From Sulfitobacter guttiformis (GTDB lineage Bacteria; Pseudomonadota; Alphaproteobacteria; Rhodobacterales; Rhodobacteraceae), in contig NZ_RAQK01000002.1 of assembly GCF_003610455.1 (NCBI RefSeq), forward strand, positions 186,001-250,000: DNA of 64,000 nt. Reading direction: 5' to 3'. Each line of letters begins with the position of its first letter. Positions within the stretch are counted from its first letter, which is position 1. Below are positions 46,423-56,296 of this stretch, piece by piece. Under the pieces are notes generated by a model that was given only the letters and a program-made list of their open reading frames with translations, searched no databases and was not told the DNA's origin. Both the position numbers and the translations under genes were made by a program.

Positions 46423-46512
46423 GGACAGGTGGCCGAGTGGTCGAAGGCGCACGCCTGGAAAGTGTGTAGGCGGGAGACCGTCTCCAGGGTTCGAATCCCT
46501 GTCTGTCCGCCA
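46423..46512 (+). tRNA. tRNA-Ser (GGA)
   Basis: A 90-base class II tRNA: acceptor GGACAGG with TCTGTCC, D arm 'GGCCGAGTGGTCGAAGGC', anticodon loop CTGGAAA giving GGA (reads UCC/UCU), a long variable arm 'TGTGTAGGCGGGAGACCGTC', T arm 'CAGGGTTCGAATCCCTG' and encoded CCA. The following 14 kb looks like an island, and tRNA-Ser genes are common insertion sites. Confidence 0.96.
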
Positions 46513-47942
46513 ACTATCCCCTTATCTCGGAATTATGCCGCATTTCGCTTTGTCTGACTACGCAGCAGCGGGCGGCTAGCGATGAATTCCCTGTTTTTCT
46601 GAAGCAGGGAATAAAGTCATTCGGAACAGGGCGAATAAAATCTGAGCATCGGTGATAGCCGAGATGTGCGCCTGTTCATGCCCGCACATGGGCATCTTGC
46701 TGCAGATCAAGTATTCAGGGTAAGGTCGGGCGGTTGCGCTCCGCCAGGTGGTGTTTCTGTATTAGGGTGAGAGAAATAAAAACAGGTATTCGTTGCCGTT
46801 CACGGCTCAGTCCACAACGATTCAACCAGCATCGCCACCTCTACAGCCGAGCAAATTTCAAGGTTAACCGTACCGCTGCTGTGACTGAGAGGTGCGGCCT
46901 CTACGCAGCCTAAAAGATTGAAATCTCTTGAGAACAAAGACTATTTCGATTTGGTCTGGCAGCACCTGCAAAGCTGTTTTCAACAGCGACAGCAAACCAC
47001 CCCGTCTCAACAGCGATCTTGCGCGAAAACGAGCCGCAGGTATGCTTTGGATCATTTTGCACCTGACGCATGCGGAATTCCGGATTGCTGGTGTAGCCAG
47101 TTTGATAAAAGGCAATCTTGGCAGCGTGAAATCAAGGACATGTGTCTTGCTTGGTTTCGATGTCGACGCCTCACCACAGCCTGCGAAGTTAACAGCCCTG
47201 TTCAACATGTTCACAACCGCAACATTTTGGTGCTGCACACAATCATGCTCATAGCGGCGATGACCTGTGTTTTGACGCAGCGCAGGCCCGATCAACTCAG
47301 CCGTAACGCTCTGCCTCAGTTGCTTATTAATCTTTTGAGAAGATCAAGCATCCAGCACGGTGCCCACCAGTTGCTCCAGCTTTGATCCGAAAGCGTTGCC
47401 GCCAATTTGTGTGGCCGCCTGCAGATTCAAGATGATCACGATGGCAGTCACCTTCCGGTCAGTGCAATCTGTTTGGACGAGGGAGTTGTACTTCCATTGT
47501 TCACGTGTCCAGTTTCCTGTCTTTAACTCAGGCGGGCGGGCAAAATTAAACACCCAATTACTAATGGTTTGGATGCGCATAGGCGCTCATTGAGGTATCG
47601 GAAGACGCGTTTTAGGCAGATAATGATTTACAAGTCAGGTTCGAGTTAATCAGGCGCATGTTGGAGCAATATGCTGTGGGAAAGGCAGCGGAGTAAGTTA
47701 CCAGAGTTTCTCAGGAGAGTTCTTTTAAATTTGATCATCGGCAAATTTGGAAATCGGCACGATCGGCTCAAAGTTGCCGTTAAGACGTGCAGTTTTACGC
47801 TGTGGTAGTAGTCCGCATCTCGGACATTCGTTGCGACCGGCAAATCAGGGTTTGGATTAGCGTACGACGAAAGTACCCCAAGCCAAGACAAGACTAAGTT
47901 GCCTCTAAGGCAGGCTTTACGTCATGCGAGGCGTGCGCGCCC
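46513..47942. other. Gene-poor region after tRNA-Ser
   Basis: About 1,430 bases without a gene I can support, more AT-rich to the eye than the core genes. Weak frames exist, such as 46864-47295 (minus) and 46928-47254 (plus), overlapping on opposite strands without ribosome binding sites or family resemblance, and a 78-codon frame at 47344-47580 (minus). They may be decayed genes. This fits the left part of a genomic island. Confidence 0.5.
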
Positions 47943-48968
47943 TTATCCGCAGAGGCGGTTCAGGAGGTCGAGATTGCGAAGCAGCCGATCTTTGGACGCT
48001 CCGCCTTCGGCACGAAGTTCTGAAATCAGGACCTCTTCCAGTGCGGACACGTTCTCTGCGGCGATGGCAAAGATGTCATCTTCGGATGCCACGGTGCGCA
48101 GACCCGGCTTGCGCGGTGCGTCGTCCAAGGTGGTGCCCAACCGGTTCTCGACCCATTTCAATTCGTCGCGGTTTGCCTCAATAACCGGGTCAGTGAGCGA
48201 GGGGTCAAAGGCCAGCTTGCCGGTCCCAATCTGGGCGACCTTGTTGACGAAGGCCATGTTCCTGCCGCTCATTCGGGTACTACCGTCTACAGGCTCGTTA
48301 TTGAGAATGCGCTGGGTGTAAAGCAAACAAAAAGCCTCAAGCGAGAGACCCTCGTTGGCGCGCACATAATCGGTTTTTGGGAGGTCAAGCCCGGCGGTGT
48401 CGAAGAAATCGGTCAATACGTCATTGTCTTTGAGCGCGGCAATGTCGAATTTCTTCAGCAGCACGTTCTCGCGTCCGAATACTGTGTCAAGTTTATGGAT
48501 CGCATTGCGGTAAGGCGGAAAATGGAACTTCAGCTTCTTCGGGTTACGCTTGATCATCTCCTGCATCGCACTGGTCATGAAGCCAACCGGTGGGCGGACA
48601 TAGAGAATGACCTGAATCTCGTCGCAATATGCGGCATAGAAATCACGCAGCCTCTGCACTGCTGGGAGAGGAGAAGTCACCAACCGCTCGGCCGAAAAGA
48701 CGGTGGTATGATATGCAGGATCAGTAAGATTTTGGCGCAGGGTATCTTCGGTCTTGGCCTTGCGTTGCAGAACCTCGGGAGCGCCGGGGGCGAATTTCGA
48801 CAGGCCTGGCGGAACACCACCCTCGAACAGTAATACCATCAAGCCGTTTTGGCCACCACCGGGGCCACTATCAGGAACGTAAACGCCCTTGGGCGCGTTG
48901 CTTTGCAGGGTCATCTGGATCGACGTGGTGCCTGTCTTGTGCATGCCTGCATGAATAACCGCGCGCAT
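47943..48968 (-). CDS. Sulfotransferase-like protein
   Basis: A 341-residue protein whose start, MRAVIHAGMHKTGTTSIQ, is the phosphosulfate-binding loop pattern of the sulfotransferase/P-loop family; 'VILYVRPPVGFMTSAMQEM' resembles the 3'-phosphate-binding Arg block. I therefore call it sulfotransferase-like, transferring sulfate from PAPS to an unknown acceptor. AAGGAG precedes ATG 48968 at six bases, so the frame beyond it is rejected. It may be cargo of the island or may serve the biosynthetic genes further right, from which it is separated by about 500 bases. Confidence 0.7.
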   Translation of the reverse strand: MRAVIHAGMHKTGTTSIQMTLQSNAPKGVYVPDSGPGGGQNGLMVLLFEGGVPPGLSKFAPGAPEVLQRKAKTEDTLRQNLTDPAYHTTVFSAERLVTSPLPAVQRLRDFYAAYCDEIQVILYVRPPVGFMTSAMQEMIKRNPKKLKFHFPPYRNAIHKLDTVFGRENVLLKKFDIAALKDNDVLTDFFDTAGLDLPKTDYVRANEGLSLEAFCLLYTQRILNNEPVDGSTRMSGRNMAFVNKVAQIGTGKLAFDPSLTDPVIEANRDELKWVENRLGTTLDDAPRKPGLRTVASEDDIFAIAAENVSALEEVLISELRAEGGASKDRLLRNLDLLNRLCG

Positions 48969-49492
48969 CGTCCACTCCTTCGACAATTCCTATTTTTGGC
49001 TAGTAGGCCATAGGTCCACTTCGGTCAAGGGGATCGGGCGGCGCCAGTGGTTGCGCTCTGTTCATACGTGCAACACGCTTCTTCTTTTGCACTGAATAAG
49101 ATGACAATCCGAATACCAATGCGGATTTCACGACACGATCCTTGAATTTTCTGCAAAAGTGCAAATAACCTTGATCCGCCCTGAACGCAGAAATGTGATA
49201 GTGCAGAAATTGCGCATATTTAGTCTCCCATCACGGCCATTATGTCCGAACCGGACATTCGGTGTGAGGTCAGATGCCGTGTTGTGGGCTCTCCGAAGCG
49301 TAACTTCACTCCGGTTGCGGCATTGTGCCGTGTAAGAATATCAAAATAAGGGCACGCCGATCATGCATTACTATAAAATTAAGCATAAAATCTATTAAAG
49401 CAGGGGATCAATTAAAAATGACTGCTTACTCTCGTCGAGCGCAAGCAGTCGTGTTTTAGAGGAAGCGGAAAAACATTGCCCCCAAATAACTT
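48969..49492. promoter_or_regulatory. Intergenic region with a 17-bp palindrome
   Basis: About 520 bases between the sulfotransferase-like gene and the repeat peptide. No gene is evident. ATGTCCG-AAC-CGGACAT at 49242-49258 is a perfect inverted repeat with seven-base arms, the size expected of a regulator dimer site, including some LuxR-type boxes. An AT-rich stretch around 49370-49420 has no clear promoter. Confidence 0.45.
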
Positions 49493-49663
49493 TTAGATGG
49501 GCTCAGGTACGCCGACTTTAGCTGAACGTGCAGCTTCTGATCCGCGAAGCATCAGCAGTTTTGAACGGATGGGCGCGTCAGGCTCTGGGGGAAAGCCGAC
49601 TTTGGGGGAGCGTGCAGCTTCTGAACCTTTCAGAGCTAGAAGTTTAGAAATATCAATCTTCAT
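49493..49663 (-). CDS. 56-residue tandem-module peptide (candidate precursor)
   Basis: MKIDI followed by two modules, SKLLALKGSEAARSPKVG... and SKLLMLRGSEAARSAKVG..., ending PEPI. The modules match at 17 of 22 or more positions. Compared codon by codon, nine differences are silent and only about four change the residue, mostly mildly, which shows that this strand and frame are under selection. An opposite-strand frame over the same bases has no ribosome binding site. Precedent: RiPP precursors are short, repeated and lie beside their enzymes. The peptide is 66 bases from the divergent thioesterase gene. I do not recognise its family; a small structural or signalling protein is an alternative. 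A TTG at 49678 could extend it by five residues. Confidence 0.7.
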   Translation of the reverse strand: MKIDISKLLALKGSEAARSPKVGFPPEPDAPIRSKLLMLRGSEAARSAKVGVPEPI

Positions 49664-49729
49664 CTTTACGTTTTCCAATTAAGCTGGTCTTTTGATTTTG
49701 TGTGAGAACTCTAGGAAGAACAAGCACCT

Positions 49730-50404
49730 ATGTCTAGTCATGATCCAATCCTTCCGCAGCAAAAATTGATGGCCTCTTGGGACGGGCGGGCTGTTGATGA
49801 GCGCGGTATTCTGCGAATTTTGAACGAGAACGGCACCCGTTCTCCGCTGTTTTGGATCTTCAACGGCGCACCAGAACCTGCGCGTCTGGCGAAGTGTTTG
49901 GGCGATGATCAGCCTTTGATCTACTCTCGGTCTTCCCATTTGCTAGTTCGGCCCGGCGATGACCCGATGGATATACGTAATATTCTGGCACGGTATTTGG
50001 CATGCGAATTGTGTCAGCATTTTCCCGAAGCAAGCTTTGATATCGGTACCAGTTGTCAGGGTAGCACGATAGCAATGGCGGTTTGCAACCTGTTGCGAGA
50101 GGCTGGAAAAGGCGTGGGGCATCTTTGCCTGATCAATTGTTCATTGCCGGAAATCGTCACGGATCGTCCCGCGCTTTTAGTTTATGGCGACCAAGACACG
50201 GCGAGTAATCCGTTTCATAAGGATCCCGTTGGCGCAGGCAAGCGTGCAAAATCAGCATTCTCGGAATATGAGAAGTATATGGTTCGGGCTGAACATGGCC
50301 AATTCTATTCTGAAGGCACAGTCGAAATGCTCATCGATCGCTTTTACGCTTTCAGATCGCGCGTGGCTGGTTCGGGGGAGGCCAAGAGGGCTTTGACAGC
50401 GTAG
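49730..50404 (+). CDS. Thioesterase-like alpha/beta hydrolase with Cys nucleophile
   Basis: A 224-residue protein of the type II or releasing thioesterase fold. The nucleophile elbow reads 'DIGTSCQGSTIAMAV', so Cys109 takes the place of the usual Ser; 'LLVYGDQDTASNP' supplies the Asp and 'VRAEHGQFYSEG' the His. Cys in this position is known in thioesterases that close strained rings such as beta-lactones. It would release or cyclise an acyl or peptidyl group from the carrier protein encoded next door. Its last 61 bases overlap the end of the carrier-protein gene on the other strand. The ribosome binding site is poor (AGGAAG 13 bases upstream), so the start is uncertain. Confidence 0.72.
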   Translation: MSSHDPILPQQKLMASWDGRAVDERGILRILNENGTRSPLFWIFNGAPEPARLAKCLGDDQPLIYSRSSHLLVRPGDDPMDIRNILARYLACELCQHFPEASFDIGTSCQGSTIAMAVCNLLREAGKGVGHLCLINCSLPEIVTDRPALLVYGDQDTASNPFHKDPVGAGKRAKSAFSEYEKYMVRAEHGQFYSEGTVEMLIDRFYAFRSRVAGSGEAKRALTA

Positions 50405-50622
50405 GCAAGCTCTTCGACGGTTGGGTGATACAGCACGCTCGAAGGATGAATTTCCGTATTAAATCTCGCTTCCAAAGATACACACAAACCAGCCACTGCG
50501 AGTGAATCCCCACCAAGTTCGAAAAAGTCGCTTTGACGATTAATTGCTACATCGGGAAAACATTCCTGAAATGCAACAATGACCTGTTCAATGATGTGAT
50601 CAAAAGTCGACAAAGTCACCAC
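50344..50622 (-). CDS. Acyl/peptidyl carrier protein
   Basis: A 92-residue free-standing carrier protein. 'SDFFELGGDSLAVAGL' is the phosphopantetheine attachment motif with Ser40, in the GGDS form typical of NRPS-type and some small-molecule carriers. It starts at GTG 50622 (or GTG 50619) within the end of the ligase gene, so the two are coupled. The ligase probably loads it. Its 3' end overlaps the convergent thioesterase gene by 61 bases. Confidence 0.88.
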   Translation of the reverse strand: MVTLSTFDHIIEQVIVAFQECFPDVAINRQSDFFELGGDSLAVAGLCVSLEARFNTEIHPSSVLYHPTVEELAYAVKALLASPEPATRDLKA

Positions 50623-52060
50623 CCATCTCAGTTAAATTGTTTTTCAGAATACGCAGAGAAATCTTGTTCGAAGATGTGCGCGGGAGATGAGTGCTTATCA
50701 TGATTTGGTCAGGTCGGCGGTAGGAGGATATTGCCGACCTGATCGTTGCCCTCAGATCTGTGGCATCTGTTCGGGATTCGACTGCCAAGAAAATCAAATC
50801 ATCTGCAGAGCCGTCGGCCAGAGTTGTAAACGCTATGCAATCCCGAACACCATTTAGCTTTTTAACATCCTGCTCCAGATCTGAAAGGTTTACATTGATG
50901 GAATTCCGGCAGGCAATTTGTGCGGATCGGCCAGCGATGAACAAGTAGCCATCCGCGTCGATCCAACCCATGTCACCTGTATCGATAAGGGCCGCACCTT
51001 CCCGCCAATCAGGTCGGGCAATAATATGGCCAACTTCACCTGTCGGTTGCATGTGGCCATTGTCATCTTCGATCCTGACTGTGATCTCGGGAAAGGGTTT
51101 GCCCACTGAGTTTGGTTTTTCGATTATATCCTTTCCGGACAAAAGAGAGACAGCCCCCACACCCGACATCGAATACATATTCCGAACACCGGGCGTCAAA
51201 ACCCTATAAGCTTTTGCTAAAGTTTCGGGTGAAATAGGCCCCCCGATTGAGGACATAGTTTTGATATGTGGGTATGCGTGCTGGGTATCTGTTGCACAGT
51301 CTTCGCCGTGAAAATCCAGCAAATCCCCTATGATTACAGGAGGTAGACCGATGACCTTAATGTTTGGCCTGCAAAGGGCTTGATGAAGATCTGTGGTCCT
51401 AAAGAATAATGGGAGGCTTAGTAGGTATTGGCCTTGCATCAAAGTCTTGATCCATTGCGACAGTACCGCTCCGAAGGCAAGGCTCCCCACGCTGATGGTC
51501 GGTAATGCGATTGAGTTGTTCAAAAGTCTTCCGGCGGTCACCAATCCATCAATGAACGACGCATGGGTGATGGATCTATAACGTGGTAATCCAGTTGTTC
51601 CTGACGAGGACAGGATCAATGCGTTGTTATTGTGTGAACCTTCCGCGAACTGCAGATTGATGTCGCAATCATGAATTGAATCACGAGAGGGCAAAAGCCC
51701 GAAACCCCCACGACGCGCAAAGCTCGGTGAGTCTGTATAGATTGCGTTGATCCCCGCGTTTACACGCGCGGTTGTGATTTCCTCTATCGTCTGGCGTGGA
51801 TCAAGAAAAAGCACTTGGGCTTCTATCGACCAAAGAGCGATCATGGCCTCCACACCTCTCACGCGATCAACGCAGATCAATGCAATTGCAGATTTGGACG
51901 GAATGTTTTCTTTATTAAAGAAATCGGCAAGATGTTGCGCGGAGCCCGCTATATCGCCCCGTGAGAAAACTTTGCCAGCTTGCTCGATACAAAAAGCGTC
52001 AGGATCAGAGCAGGCCTGTTTTAAAATGTTAGAGCCGATATGGTGCTCATTAAATTGCAT
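50600..52060 (-). CDS. AMP-forming ligase (NRPS A-domain-like)
   Basis: A 486-residue adenylate-forming enzyme: A3 'LILSSSGTTGLPR' (about 149-161), A5 'NMYSMSGVGAVS', A7 'IDTGDMGWIDADGYLF' and A10 'LPRTSSNKISLR' with the catalytic Lys. It would activate an amino or carboxylic acid as the adenylate and load the carrier protein next door; the substrate cannot be read with confidence. It overlaps the HExxH gene upstream by 11 bases and the carrier gene downstream by 23. The ATG at 52060 is preferred over TTG 52063. Confidence 0.9.
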   Translation of the reverse strand: MQFNEHHIGSNILKQACSDPDAFCIEQAGKVFSRGDIAGSAQHLADFFNKENIPSKSAIALICVDRVRGVEAMIALWSIEAQVLFLDPRQTIEEITTARVNAGINAIYTDSPSFARRGGFGLLPSRDSIHDCDINLQFAEGSHNNNALILSSSGTTGLPRYRSITHASFIDGLVTAGRLLNNSIALPTISVGSLAFGAVLSQWIKTLMQGQYLLSLPLFFRTTDLHQALCRPNIKVIGLPPVIIGDLLDFHGEDCATDTQHAYPHIKTMSSIGGPISPETLAKAYRVLTPGVRNMYSMSGVGAVSLLSGKDIIEKPNSVGKPFPEITVRIEDDNGHMQPTGEVGHIIARPDWREGAALIDTGDMGWIDADGYLFIAGRSAQIACRNSINVNLSDLEQDVKKLNGVRDCIAFTTLADGSADDLIFLAVESRTDATDLRATIRSAISSYRRPDQIMISTHLPRTSSNKISLRILKNNLTEMGGDFVDF

Positions 52061-53108
52061 CAACGGCGCCTTTAGAGTTCGAAAAAAGAATACTGCCGAG
52101 GTCCGTCAACTTAGCATGCTCGGCCACTGTATCTTCGCAGTCCCGAAACGCCCTGATTGCGCGGGTCTGATGCTCGCGTAATTCTTCTGACCAAGTCGGT
52201 CGGTTGGGGGAGTTGAGGACTGCCTGTGCGGCAACTGCCATTCTTGCCGACACCCACATCGCGTGAAAAATTCCCTCCATCGGGCGAGGCTGTTTGCGCA
52301 AAGGAGATGTGAAACTGGCACTTGCATCATTCAATACGATTTCATCGTCTAAGTGATAGACAAACATCTGTTGATGGGAGCTTTCGTGGACAAGAGACAT
52401 TAATGTTCTTGGCAGATCTTTGAGCCCCAAGGGATTGATGAGCACAGCGCCGAAAGCATCAAATACCGAAGCCCCTCCAAAAAGCTGCTGAGCGTCAGTA
52501 TCGGCGACTGCAAAATAGATCTGATTGGTGAGCAATTGCAGCTCTTCCATCCAATCCGGTGCAGTTTGACCAAGTGTTTCCAACGCTTCGGTCACCAGCA
52601 GTTTGCATTGCTCGGTAACTTCGCTTGCAGGGGCGACGAGACTTGTTGTTAGCCCGAGATCATCAGCAAATGCGTATTTTAGTAGATAAACGTCATCGGG
52701 ATGCAGGAGGTCTCCGGCCAACGGCTGCACAGAGAACTGATCTGGCTGGCCAGTGCTACGGTTTGCTATGTCTTTTAGAATTTCGAGGGCTTTAGGGACA
52801 TCTGTTGTGTTTTCACTTAAAGCGGCTTTCAGCAAAACACCGTGAAGTGCAAAAATAACCGCATTCGGAAATGCTCTGCCTCCCACTATCAGATCATTGA
52901 GTGCTTGATCCGTAATCGGCGGGGTAAACCTGGGGCCAAACACATCGAAGACCAGGTGTTTCAGTGATTCCAGTAGTTTGAGACGAATTCTGCCTCGTGT
53001 GTCGAAGATGTATTGGGGATTGGGCAAGAAGTAATTTTGCATGATGTCGCGAATGTCACTTTGATGAAAACCACTGTGCGTCAGTGAAGTTTTGCGAACC
53101 GGCGGCAA
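52050..53108 (-). CDS. HExxH-motif protein, peptide beta-hydroxylase-like
   Basis: A 352-residue protein (from TTG 53108; ATG 53042, MQNYFLPNPQ, is a possible start, and neither has a clear ribosome binding site). 'SLVHESSHQQMF' (about 238-249) is the HExxH block and 'SPLRKQPRPMEGIFHAMWV' (about 268-286) the second conserved block. This pairing matches the family annotated as aKG-HExxH peptide beta-hydroxylases, Fe(II)/2-oxoglutarate enzymes that hydroxylate ribosomal peptides; earlier entries called it an HExxH putative peptide-modification protein. I know no other typical context. It lies at the head of the minus-strand operon, upstream of ligase and carrier. Its substrate could be the tandem-module peptide. 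Confidence 0.8.
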   Translation of the reverse strand: MPPVRKTSLTHSGFHQSDIRDIMQNYFLPNPQYIFDTRGRIRLKLLESLKHLVFDVFGPRFTPPITDQALNDLIVGGRAFPNAVIFALHGVLLKAALSENTTDVPKALEILKDIANRSTGQPDQFSVQPLAGDLLHPDDVYLLKYAFADDLGLTTSLVAPASEVTEQCKLLVTEALETLGQTAPDWMEELQLLTNQIYFAVADTDAQQLFGGASVFDAFGAVLINPLGLKDLPRTLMSLVHESSHQQMFVYHLDDEIVLNDASASFTSPLRKQPRPMEGIFHAMWVSARMAVAAQAVLNSPNRPTWSEELREHQTRAIRAFRDCEDTVAEHAKLTDLGSILFSNSKGAVDAI

Positions 53109-53812: not shown

Positions 53813-56296
53813 CTATAACGATTCTGCCATCGGAAACAGAAACGGTGCGGTCTTGCTGTTGGTGGAGCGAGACACTTCTGCAGGGGGGCCTTGAGCCACG
53901 ACCTTGCCGCCATCGTCGCCCGCACCGGGGCCGATATCAACGAGCCAGTCACTTTTCCGGGCCACAAGCATATTGTGCTCGACCATTATGACGGAATTAC
54001 CAGTATCAACCAGTCGATCAAGCTGCGCCAACAGCAGTGTCACATCCGCAGGATGGAGGCCTGTTGTCGGTTCGTCCAGAACATAAAGCGTGTCGCTGCG
54101 CTGTGCGCGCTGCAGTTCCGTTGCCAGTTTGATCCGCTGTGCCTCGCCACCCGATAATTCCGTCGCCGGCTGGCCAAGGCGTAGATAGCCGAGGCCGACC
54201 TCACGCAATGCCGCAAGTGCGCGCCCGATTGCGGGTTCATCGGCGAAAAAGTCGTGCGCTCGCTCTACCGTCAAATCGAGGACTTCTGCGATTGTCTTTT
54301 CGCGATAGCAGATTTCGAGTGTTTTATCATTGTAGCGCTGCCCGCGACATACGGGACAGAGGGCATAAACACTGGGCAGAAACAGCAGTTCGACGCTTAC
54401 AAAACCGGCACCTTCGCAGTTCGGGCAACGGCCCTTGGCAACGTTGAATGAAAAACGCCCAACGTCATAGCGCCTTGCACGCGCTTCTGCTGTTGCGGCA
54501 AATAGCTTGCGCACATGATCGAACAGGCCGGTATAGGTCGCCAGATTTGATCGTGGCGTGCGGCCAATGGGTTTCTGATCCACCACGACCAAGCGCCGTA
54601 TATGTTGCATACCATCGACGATATGCCCGCCGGTAGGGGTGTCCAATTCCTGTTCCAGCAGTGCCGGTTCGTCCTCGGACGTATCGACTTGTGGCTTCTG
54701 GCCCAGGGCTTCACTGACGAATGCAACCAGCGCCTGACTGACGAGGCTGGACTTACCCGAGCCCGACACGCCCGTTACGGTGGCCAGAACGCCTAGTGGC
54801 AGGTCAATATTGACCCCGTGCAGGTTGTTCCGCGTTACACCTGCCAGACGCAGCCAGCCTTTCGGCTCTCGCGGTTTACGGTCGCTGGCAAGGGTGCGCT
54901 CAAACAGATGCCGCGCGGTGTGGGAGGTTGCGACCTCTCGCAGGCCAGCCAGTGCGCCATTGTAGACGACCTTGCCGCCTTTGGTGCCAGCGTCCGGTCC
55001 AATGTCCACGATCCAGTCGGCGTGGCGGATGACATTTACGTCATGCTCTACCACGAACAGTGAGTTACCGGCGTTTTTCAGATCATCCAGCGCTTCAAGC
55101 AAGGCCTGAGTATCAGAGGGATGCAGCCCTGCGGACGGTTCGTCAAGTACATAGACGACGCCGAAAAGCTGCGACCGGATCTGCGTGGCCAGCCGCAAGC
55201 GCTGCAATTCCCCCGGTGACAAACTGGCTGTGTTGCGTTCCAGCGATAGGTAGCCAAGGCCAAGACGGGTCAGCGCTGAAACGCGGGCCAGAATGTCACG
55301 GGTAATGCGTTGCGCCACGATCGCTTTTTCGGGATTGCTATCATTCGCTACGGGTTCCCTATTCGCCGCCTTATGCAATAGCGCGCCAAGATCGCGCAGT
55401 GTCAGACGAGAGATCTCGCCGATATCAAGTCCTTCGAAAGTAACCGACAACGACTCGCGCTTCAGCTTTTTGCCATCACACGCCGGACAGACGGAAACGT
55501 CCATGAATTGTGAGACACGCTTTTTGGTGCGGGCGCTTTGCGTTGTGGCAAAGGATTTCAACACATAGTTTTGTGCACTGGTGAAGGTGCCCATATAGGT
55601 TGGCGAACGACCCTCTTCACGCGCTCTGCGGGTTTCCTCCGGTGTCATCCGAGCATAGACAGCTACCTCTGGGGTATCATCCGTAAACAGGATCCAATCG
55701 CGGGTGTCGCGTGGCAAATCCTTCCACGGTATGTCGATGTCATGCCCCAGAGAAATCAGAATATCGCGCAGGTTCTGCCCGCCCCAGGCCGGGGGCCACC
55801 CAGCGACCGCACCATTGCGGATTGTTTTAGTTGGGTCAGGGACGAGGAGGTCTTCCGTCACGTCAAACACGCGCCCGATGCCGTGGCAGCGCGGGCAGGC
55901 GCCGTCTGGCGTGTTGGGCGAAAATGCATCCGCGTAGAGGATCGACTGCCCTTTGGGGTACTCGCCAGCGCGGGAATACAGCATCCTCAAACCGTTAGAT
56001 ATTGTCGTGACACTGCCGACTGACGACCGGGCCGATGCGGTTCCCCTCTGCTGCTGCAAGGCGACGGCAGGCGGAAGGCCGTCAATGCTGTCGACGTCGG
56101 GTTCGCCCACTTGGTCGATCAACCGACGCGCATACGGGGAGACTGAATCCAGAAACCGCCGCTGGGCCTCTGCGAAAAGTGTGCCAAAGGCCAGAGACGA
56201 CTTACCTGAGCCCGAAATTCCGGTGAAGACGACCAGCGCATTGCGGGGCACGTCAATGTCAACGTCCTTAAGGTTGTGAACACGCGCACCCCGCAC
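53813..56296 (-). CDS. UvrA paralogue lacking the UvrB-binding domain
   Basis: An 827-residue ABC-type DNA-damage protein. Two Walker A blocks ('GISGSGKSSLAFGTLF', 'GVSGSGKSSLVSQAL'), two signature motifs ('SLSPGELQRLRLA', 'ELSGGEAQRIKLA') and Zn motifs ('CPRCHGIG', 'CPACDGKK', 'CPNCEGAGF', 'CPVCRGQRY') are present. After 'LRMLYSRAGEYP' the sequence passes straight to 'ILYADAFSPNTPDGACPRC', so the usual UvrB-binding insert is missing. Such class III proteins occur as self-resistance factors with DNA-damaging antibiotics (for example DrrC). The start is uncertain: GTG 56296 has open frame upstream without another start codon. It lies between the peptide genes and the FAD oxidoreductase, on the same strand. 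Confidence 0.88.
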   Translation of the reverse strand: MRGARVHNLKDVDIDVPRNALVVFTGISGSGKSSLAFGTLFAEAQRRFLDSVSPYARRLIDQVGEPDVDSIDGLPPAVALQQQRGTASARSSVGSVTTISNGLRMLYSRAGEYPKGQSILYADAFSPNTPDGACPRCHGIGRVFDVTEDLLVPDPTKTIRNGAVAGWPPAWGGQNLRDILISLGHDIDIPWKDLPRDTRDWILFTDDTPEVAVYARMTPEETRRAREEGRSPTYMGTFTSAQNYVLKSFATTQSARTKKRVSQFMDVSVCPACDGKKLKRESLSVTFEGLDIGEISRLTLRDLGALLHKAANREPVANDSNPEKAIVAQRITRDILARVSALTRLGLGYLSLERNTASLSPGELQRLRLATQIRSQLFGVVYVLDEPSAGLHPSDTQALLEALDDLKNAGNSLFVVEHDVNVIRHADWIVDIGPDAGTKGGKVVYNGALAGLREVATSHTARHLFERTLASDRKPREPKGWLRLAGVTRNNLHGVNIDLPLGVLATVTGVSGSGKSSLVSQALVAFVSEALGQKPQVDTSEDEPALLEQELDTPTGGHIVDGMQHIRRLVVVDQKPIGRTPRSNLATYTGLFDHVRKLFAATAEARARRYDVGRFSFNVAKGRCPNCEGAGFVSVELLFLPSVYALCPVCRGQRYNDKTLEICYREKTIAEVLDLTVERAHDFFADEPAIGRALAALREVGLGYLRLGQPATELSGGEAQRIKLATELQRAQRSDTLYVLDEPTTGLHPADVTLLLAQLDRLVDTGNSVIMVEHNMLVARKSDWLVDIGPGAGDDGGKVVAQGPPAEVSRSTNSKTAPFLFPMAESL

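Follow-up and report, generated by a model that had tools for sequence, protein, structure and literature searches.

The window analysed here, a 64,000-nucleotide stretch of the Sulfitobacter guttiformis genome (contig NZ_RAQK01000002.1), contains within 49493..53108 a 3.6-kb cassette that encodes a short precursor peptide, a thioesterase-like protein with a Cys nucleophile, a free-standing carrier protein, an AMP-forming ligase and a HExxH protein of the peptide beta-hydroxylase type. We propose, with a probability of about 0.42, that this cassette represents an undescribed family of ribosomally synthesised and post-translationally modified peptides (RiPPs), in which the HExxH enzyme would hydroxylate the peptide and the ligase, carrier and thioesterase would join an external acyl group to its core, probably to a Lys. 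The gene order is peptide (−), thioesterase (+), carrier (−), ligase (−) and HExxH (−). All five features named in a preliminary description of this DNA were confirmed by profiles and direct reading, and the overlaps that it gave for the HExxH and ligase genes (11 bases, with the ligase ATG at 52060) and for the ligase and carrier genes (23 bases) agree with the coordinates. The 3' ends of the carrier and thioesterase genes overlap as well, over 61 bases (50344-50404). Two gene starts were revised from alignments of homologues: the HExxH start TTG 53108 was replaced by ATG 53042 (MQNYFLP; alignment A1), and the peptide gene, previously 49493-49678 (−), was shortened to the ATG at 49663, which gives a product of 56 residues (alignment A4).

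The gene set recurs in other genomes. When 84,980 species genomes were scanned with patterns from the HExxH alignment, 41 stretches matched and 20 of these encode a relative; the scan requires one of two exact patterns, and therefore some members may be missed. The ligase, carrier and thioesterase genes adjoin the HExxH gene in 16 of these 20 relatives, and the remaining four comprise three loci with another partner (L029, L030 and L033) and a broken one (L032). Genome searches added two cassettes (L055 and L057) and recovered L031 again as L056, together with its peptide. After the repeat copies (L003, L004, L051-L054 and L058) were dropped, 19 distinct cassettes, the window's included, were counted in Paracoccaceae/Roseobacteraceae-type genomes. 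They show three arrangements: HExxH-ligase-carrier against a convergent thioesterase gene (12 of 19), the carrier on the thioesterase strand (L024 and L026), and a single strand in the order thioesterase-peptide-HExxH-ligase-carrier (L027, L028, L055, L056 and L057). The link between the parts, which had first been drawn from their co-location, is supported by this recurrence of the five genes together.

A short peptide gene was present at 18 of the 18 cassettes whose flank lies on the contig (the contig of L014 ends inside the thioesterase gene), and L015, L024 and L057 have two. The preliminary description had held that the enzymes occurring without a nearby repeat peptide would speak against the link. 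Taken literally, this is the case in most cassettes, as two modules within one gene were found only in the window and L017, and the peptide is single-module in 16 of the 18 cassettes; the peptide itself, however, is present in all 18. In the close pair L018/L019, the ratio of nonsynonymous to synonymous substitution rates was about 0.2 in all four enzymes, and the peptide gene differs by three changes, two synonymous and one not. No relative was found in the viral contigs searched, and the plasmids with HExxH gave four distant matches, of which the Pantoea one is not a cassette; the opened HExxH loci leave out plasmid matches H2-H4 and the distant HExxH genes of two further genomes (G581 and G608). 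In the Celeribacter locus L032, positions 2278-2697 hold the peptide-like start (E=4.4e-7) of a surface-protein-like, frame-broken stretch beside a broken HExxH remnant, and this locus was counted neither for nor against. In the 94-residue protein P0243, a cassette-type peptide is in frame with an apparent (by eye) HExxH N-terminus; this single truncated metagenome protein from a 2.6-kb contig was given no weight.

The peptide and the cassette-type HExxH gene also occur in the same genomes. When 394 genomes of the family, taken in a single draw, were searched with the peptide profile, eight matches (E 5.5e-16 to 3.3e-9) appeared in six genomes, and the next value was 0.0118. The peptides of all six positive genomes are rows of profile A2, so that their scores are by construction; this search is informative for the remaining genomes, none of which rose above noise (0.0118). 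With the HExxH profile, the six positive genomes alone gave cassette-type matches (E of 4.1e-86 or lower), and ten further genomes contained only a distant HExxH (E 3.6e-54 or weaker) and no peptide match above noise. Up to 20 first-look candidates per genome were scored in the peptide search and up to five in the HExxH search. As in RiPP systems, a short gene-encoded precursor adjoins the modifying enzymes and is inherited together with them.

The window peptide, MKIDISKLLALKGSEAARSPKVGFPPEPDAPIRSKLLMLRGSEAARSAKVGVPEPI (49493..49663, −), begins with a leader-like MKIDISKLL and has two modules, SKLLALKGSEAARSPKVGFPPEP (49580..49648, −) and SKLLMLRGSEAARSAKVGVPEP (49499..49564, −), in which the core residues are K21/E27 and K49/E54. 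With a leave-one-out profile run on the 1791 open stretches of the window, the peptide scored 95 bits (E=1.4e-28), with domains of 57.7 and 39.0 bits on the first and second module, and the next best stretch gave E=0.22. This difference indicates that the match is not due to chance. M1, K7, L9, L11 and K21 are invariant across the 20 peptide rows of alignment A4, and a loose leader pattern is conserved in 19 of the 20, while the tail varies in both sequence and length. A conserved recognition sequence with a more variable core is typical of RiPP precursors, and from the alignment we infer a corresponding division into leader and core. NCBIfam gave no family at E 5 for 21 of the peptides. A 61-residue open frame (49497-49682, +) runs antisense to the peptide gene and is most likely a by-product of composition.

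A protein database search with the peptide profile returned 47 short proteins, namely the window's own and 46 further relatives; for five of the 47, the longest contig is equal in length to that of an HExxH match (four lengths in all). The two-module form previously described holds for the window but is not general, since 58 of the 65 distinct peptides, including the window's own, have one module, six have two and one has three. Glu follows [ASPTV]K[VIA][GS] by 1-4 residues in 73 of the 73 cores of these 65 cassette-type peptides, whereas 2000 rounds of in-place tail shuffling, a procedure that treats related peptides as independent, gave 45.8 on average and 57 at most. The profile by which the 47 database peptides were found contains K[VI]G and E columns; in the peptides read from the cassettes alone (21 genes), Glu follows the core Lys in 23 of 23. 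When the pattern was relaxed to K.[GS] beyond residue 14, Glu was present at 74 of 83 sites; the nine without it are Lys of the leader type or in the tail. At other HExxH loci, all 16 precursors have K-x-G after the leader (46 sites), and Glu follows 3 of 44 such sites (D or E, 11 of 44). The presence of K-x-G in all of these precursors and the invariance of K21 make the Lys a shared feature of the HExxH systems seen. Since both sets have the HExxH enzyme, the Glu tracks either the ligase-carrier-thioesterase type or this HExxH clade. The core Glu needs a role, as a hydroxylation site, a recognition point or an acid that is activated.

The 330-residue HExxH protein of the window (52050..53042, −; HESSH) scored 85.4 bits with TIGR04267, against a cut-off of 40, and by this profile and the fold of the HExxH domain of ChlBH (8s5f) it is an aKG-HExxH peptide hydroxylase. 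Fe(II)/2-oxoglutarate-dependent hydroxylation is its putative activity. The motif is present in 19 of 19 cassette members, and the cassette HExxH clade has a tree support of 100/99. The AMP-forming ligase (50600..52063, −; likely start ATG 52060; PF00501, 99 bits) has no equivalent of Asp235 in the alignment to 2vsq, and in all 19 cassette ligases the residue that aligns with the 2vsq FD motif is G, S or P. Activation of an alpha-amino acid was rejected on this ground, as the Asp expected for an alpha-amine is missing. The carrier protein (50344..50622, −; PF00550, 45.9 bits) shows GGDS in 19 of 19 cassettes. The stand-alone thioesterase-like protein (49730..50404, +) scored 26.2 bits with PF00975, 0.2 below the cut-off; it has the alpha/beta hydrolase fold of thioesterases with the nucleophile Cys109 (GTSCQG) and His189, and the nucleophile is Cys in 18 of 18 cassettes.

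A conserved partner of two types was found in 15 of the 18 other HExxH loci (it is absent from L063, L108 and L065), and either type in 0 of the 19 cassettes. Type 2 (L029, L030, L033 and L069) is ATP-grasp, and the three members tested (L029, L033 and L069) pass or reach the Pfam cut-off. Type 1 (L059-L062, L064, L066-L068, L070, L008 and L047) is weakly ATP-grasp-like, with a C-terminal match to D-Ala-D-Ala ligases (best PDB E=0.011; 13.5 bits), and a comparison of the two profiles (A5 and A6) by hhalign gave no match. Some of the loci counted had themselves supplied the profiles: five of the eleven of type 1 and three of the four of type 2. The ligase-carrier-thioesterase trio thus occupies the position that another partner protein has in sister HExxH systems, an ATP-grasp ligase in at least some of them. 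In 12 of the 17 loci scanned, small frames with a [LIV][DEN]xx[KR][LMI][LYF]G[FY] leader lie within 2 kb of the HExxH gene. This pattern matched 16 times in 260 kb, 16 of 16 near HExxH, a nearness that is descriptive because the pattern was written after examples had been seen. The cassette leader (M-K-L-D-x-x-K-L-L) resembles LDxxKLLGF up to the last two letters. The wider precursor family (L059-L064, L066, L067, L069, L070 and L033), with an LDxxKLLGF leader and Lys-rich K-x-G repeats, adjoins HExxH and mostly another conserved partner. The L064 precursor, for example, is GAKMGAKDGVKMGNKVGLKAGAK, that of L067 has three LLG-K-TG/IG-SKV repeats, and five precursor peptides stand in a row in L062.

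The three enzymes of the trio are also found fused. In L065, an 841-residue ligase-carrier-thioesterase fusion (GVCQGG, Cys) overlaps and directly follows the HExxH gene, and upstream lies a 69-residue frame with two LGRLFSKRGxVE repeats, in which Glu follows the core Lys in 2 of 2. The L065 HExxH protein is the sister of the cassette clade (95/91), joined on a long branch. The profile does not support homology between the peptides of L065 and of the cassettes (best match E=1, elsewhere), and the leader pattern is their only link. In the metagenome protein P0079, a ligase, a carrier and a thioesterase (GGNCQG) are fused to a C-terminal PF13640 2-oxoglutarate oxygenase, so that an oxygenase of another family is joined to such a trio; P0078, also with GGNCQG, is similar to P0079 without this oxygenase. 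P0079 and P0078, both of the ligase-carrier-thioesterase-Ig-like kind, come from a metagenome and from a metagenome-assembled genome of Methylococcaceae. The ligase, carrier and thioesterase are predicted to act together as one machine.

In the mechanism that we propose, the leader M-K-[IL]-D-x-x-K-L-L-x-L would guide the enzymes to two cores of the form [AP]-K-[VI]-G-x(0-3)-E, and the HExxH protein, as an Fe(II)/2-oxoglutarate oxygenase, would hydroxylate a core residue. The ligase would convert a carboxylic acid to its adenylate and load it onto the phosphopantetheine of the carrier, from which the thioesterase-like protein would take the acyl group on Cys109 for transfer to the core, not for hydrolysis. 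The bond formed would be an amide or an ester; the invariant Lys (K21 and K49), through its side-chain amine, is the likeliest acceptor. This scheme builds on the gene set with its recurrence and co-occurrence, the leader and core conservation, the enzyme families and folds, and the exchange of partners; the hydroxylation site, the acid, the acceptor, the order of steps, the product and its role are its predictions. In characterised relatives of the HExxH enzyme, the residues hydroxylated in RiPP precursors are Asp and His, Gln, or Pro (PMC12636437, PMC13060819). For the Pfl system, the missing conserved Lys was used as an argument against Lys acylation (PMC12636437); in the cassette peptides, by contrast, two Lys are invariant. 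Several points weigh against the transfer of an external acyl group. Such a donor would leave the conserved core Glu unexplained, and the ligase pocket is atypical (it is without the A4 Asp, and the A5 Glu is missing in the window). Acyl-bond making by both partners is not firm, because 11 of the 15 other loci have the weakly ATP-grasp-like type. Beyond the four enzymes, no gene common to most cassette loci, and hence no protease or transporter, was found; a fifth gene common to most of L014-L033, such as one for a GNAT acyltransferase, did not emerge among flanking genes that are only partly annotated.

The core Glu would find its role if the bond were internal, which we regard as unlikely but worth serious weight. 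In this case, the ligase would adenylate the gamma-carboxylate of the core Glu (E27 and E54), the resulting Glu-thioester would stand on the carrier, and the Cys thioesterase would close it on the Lys (K21 and K49), giving a hydroxylated Lys-Glu isopeptide, that is, a graspetide-like ring made by enzymes of the non-ribosomal peptide synthetase (NRPS) type. A precedent is corallotide: an ATP-grasp enzyme forms its KxxxD isopeptide, after which CorC, a PF13640 protein, hydroxylates the Lys (PMC13097080); PF13640 is also the domain fused to the trio in P0079. The spacing of the Glu, floating yet obligatory (73/73 cores and 2/2 in L065, versus 3/44 other sites), points in the same direction, as do the ATP-grasp enzymes that Pfam identifies as the alternative partner in L029, L033 and L069, and the fold of the thioesterase, which is near those of the surfactin and SulM thioesterases. 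However, we know of no AMP-forming ligase of this superfamily that acts on peptide side chains, and the ligase domains of P0078 and P0079 score best with fatty acyl-AMP ligases, although far below the cut-off. In addition, the K-to-E distance varies from 3 to 6, and the commoner partner (type 1) is not securely ATP-grasp. AMP-forming ligases act on free acids, and other HExxH precursors are mostly without the acid; for these two reasons we somewhat prefer the joining of an external acyl group.

It is improbable that the cassette makes two products, with HExxH hydroxylating the peptide and the ligase, carrier and thioesterase making a separate small acid derivative, or with a thioesterase that only cleans the carrier. 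The one-strand order with the peptide gene in five cassettes, the peptide and cassette HExxH in the same 6 of 394 genomes, the fusion of the three domains in L065 and P0079, and a thioesterase nucleophile that is Cys, not Ser, all argue against such a separation. The HExxH protein might also be a metalloprotease that matures the peptide, as HExxH is the zincin motif and PflC is described as carrying out proteolysis in the absence of the leader, besides hydroxylation (PMC12636437); on the evidence of the HExxH fold, this reading was rejected as very improbable. Chance neighbourhood of unrelated genes in a variable region that begins at a tRNA-Ser gene, where the likeness within the genus ends, and that has a lower G+C content was rejected as scarcely credible in view of the 19 distinct cassettes, the same six genomes of 394 and the leave-one-out peptide match.

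This tRNA-Ser(GGA) gene (46423..46512, +; ARAGORN) lies outside the machine, at the edge of the variable region. Sequence common to four genomes of the same genus (L112-L115) ends at 46510-46571; since the left side is common up to the tRNA gene and divergent from there, the cassette lies in a variable region. The G+C content is about 0.48-0.51 in the cassette region versus 0.54-0.59 in 42.0-46.5 kb, and the stretch at 56.5-60 kb is G+C-poor as well. A search of the window for a further copy of the tRNA 3' end, with up to three mismatches allowed, found none. Two neighbours were rejected as members: a sulfotransferase gene (47943-48986), without a relative at E 1e-3 in the cassette loci, and a UvrA-like gene (53813-56296), with only short, generic-ABC-ATPase-looking matches in L057 and L068. 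At E 1e-200, a search of 16 further genomes of the genus returned nothing for the UvrA-like gene.

Known aKG-HExxH RiPP systems (ChlBH, BpmH, PflC/PosC and the enzyme of the nitrilobacillin cluster) share with the cassette the enzyme family (TIGR04267; 8s5f) and an adjoining short precursor. The Pfl cluster differs in its other enzymes, a GNAT and an MNIO-nitroreductase; in the paper, the terms 'carrier protein' and 'thioesterase' do not occur, and the precursor has an NHLP-type leader (PMC12636437). Corallotide and other graspetides share cores with repeated Lys and acid and a bond-forming enzyme paired with a 2-oxoglutarate oxygenase (PMC13097080), but the cassette has carrier-based enzymes and HExxH instead of PF13640, and a ring is only putative here. 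No ATP-grasp partner of the graspetide kind was found, as 0 of 19 cassette loci match either partner profile; curated models were applied to the named window genes only. RiPP lipopeptides (goadvionins, lipoavitides, selidamides and nostolysamides) also have an acyl group joined to a ribosomal peptide, at ornithine in selidamides and at the Lys side chain in nostolysamides; they use GNAT acyltransferases (NpuN with acyl-CoA), whereas the cassette has a ligase, a single carrier and a Cys thioesterase (PMC13060382). NRPS-like proteins (P0078, L104 from Methylomagnum and L106 from Gemmobacter) contain the same domains with a GGNC[QK]G thioesterase motif, but fused, and no HExxH gene was found next to L104 or L106 in the genes annotated or scanned there. 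L104 (NZ_AP019785.1, a plasmid of Methylomagnum ishizawai) is an NRPS whose thioesterase has GGNCQG and in which sulfotransferase-like and repeat parts can be made out by eye; its neighbours encode an acyl carrier protein, a TauD dioxygenase and a radical SAM-like protein. The NRPS thioesterases of SulM and ObiF have a Cys nucleophile; that of the cassette differs from them in being stand-alone, 224 residues long and encoded beside a ribosomal peptide. The earlier impression that the combination matches no named class was upheld: HExxH with ligase, carrier and thioesterase is not described in the literature searched, which leaves subscription papers mostly outside, and this absence is no proof of absence. 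The bond-forming chemistry of the RiPP cassette is putative.

If our reading is right, ribosomal peptides would be decorated or closed by carrier-protein chemistry without GNAT or ATP-grasp enzymes, and RiPP and non-ribosomal logic would be joined in a four-enzyme unit of 3.6 kb, a size that would allow it to be rebuilt. The rules for leader and core (LDxxKLL, K-x-G, and Glu with the carrier type) provide a means to find the precursors of the wider HExxH family, many of which are small open frames. If the internal Lys-Glu bond is the true one, enzymes of the non-ribosomal assembly line would replace the graspetide synthetase, and the exchange of parts, both between partner types and between HExxH and PF13640, would define one modular superfamily that hydroxylates and links the Lys.

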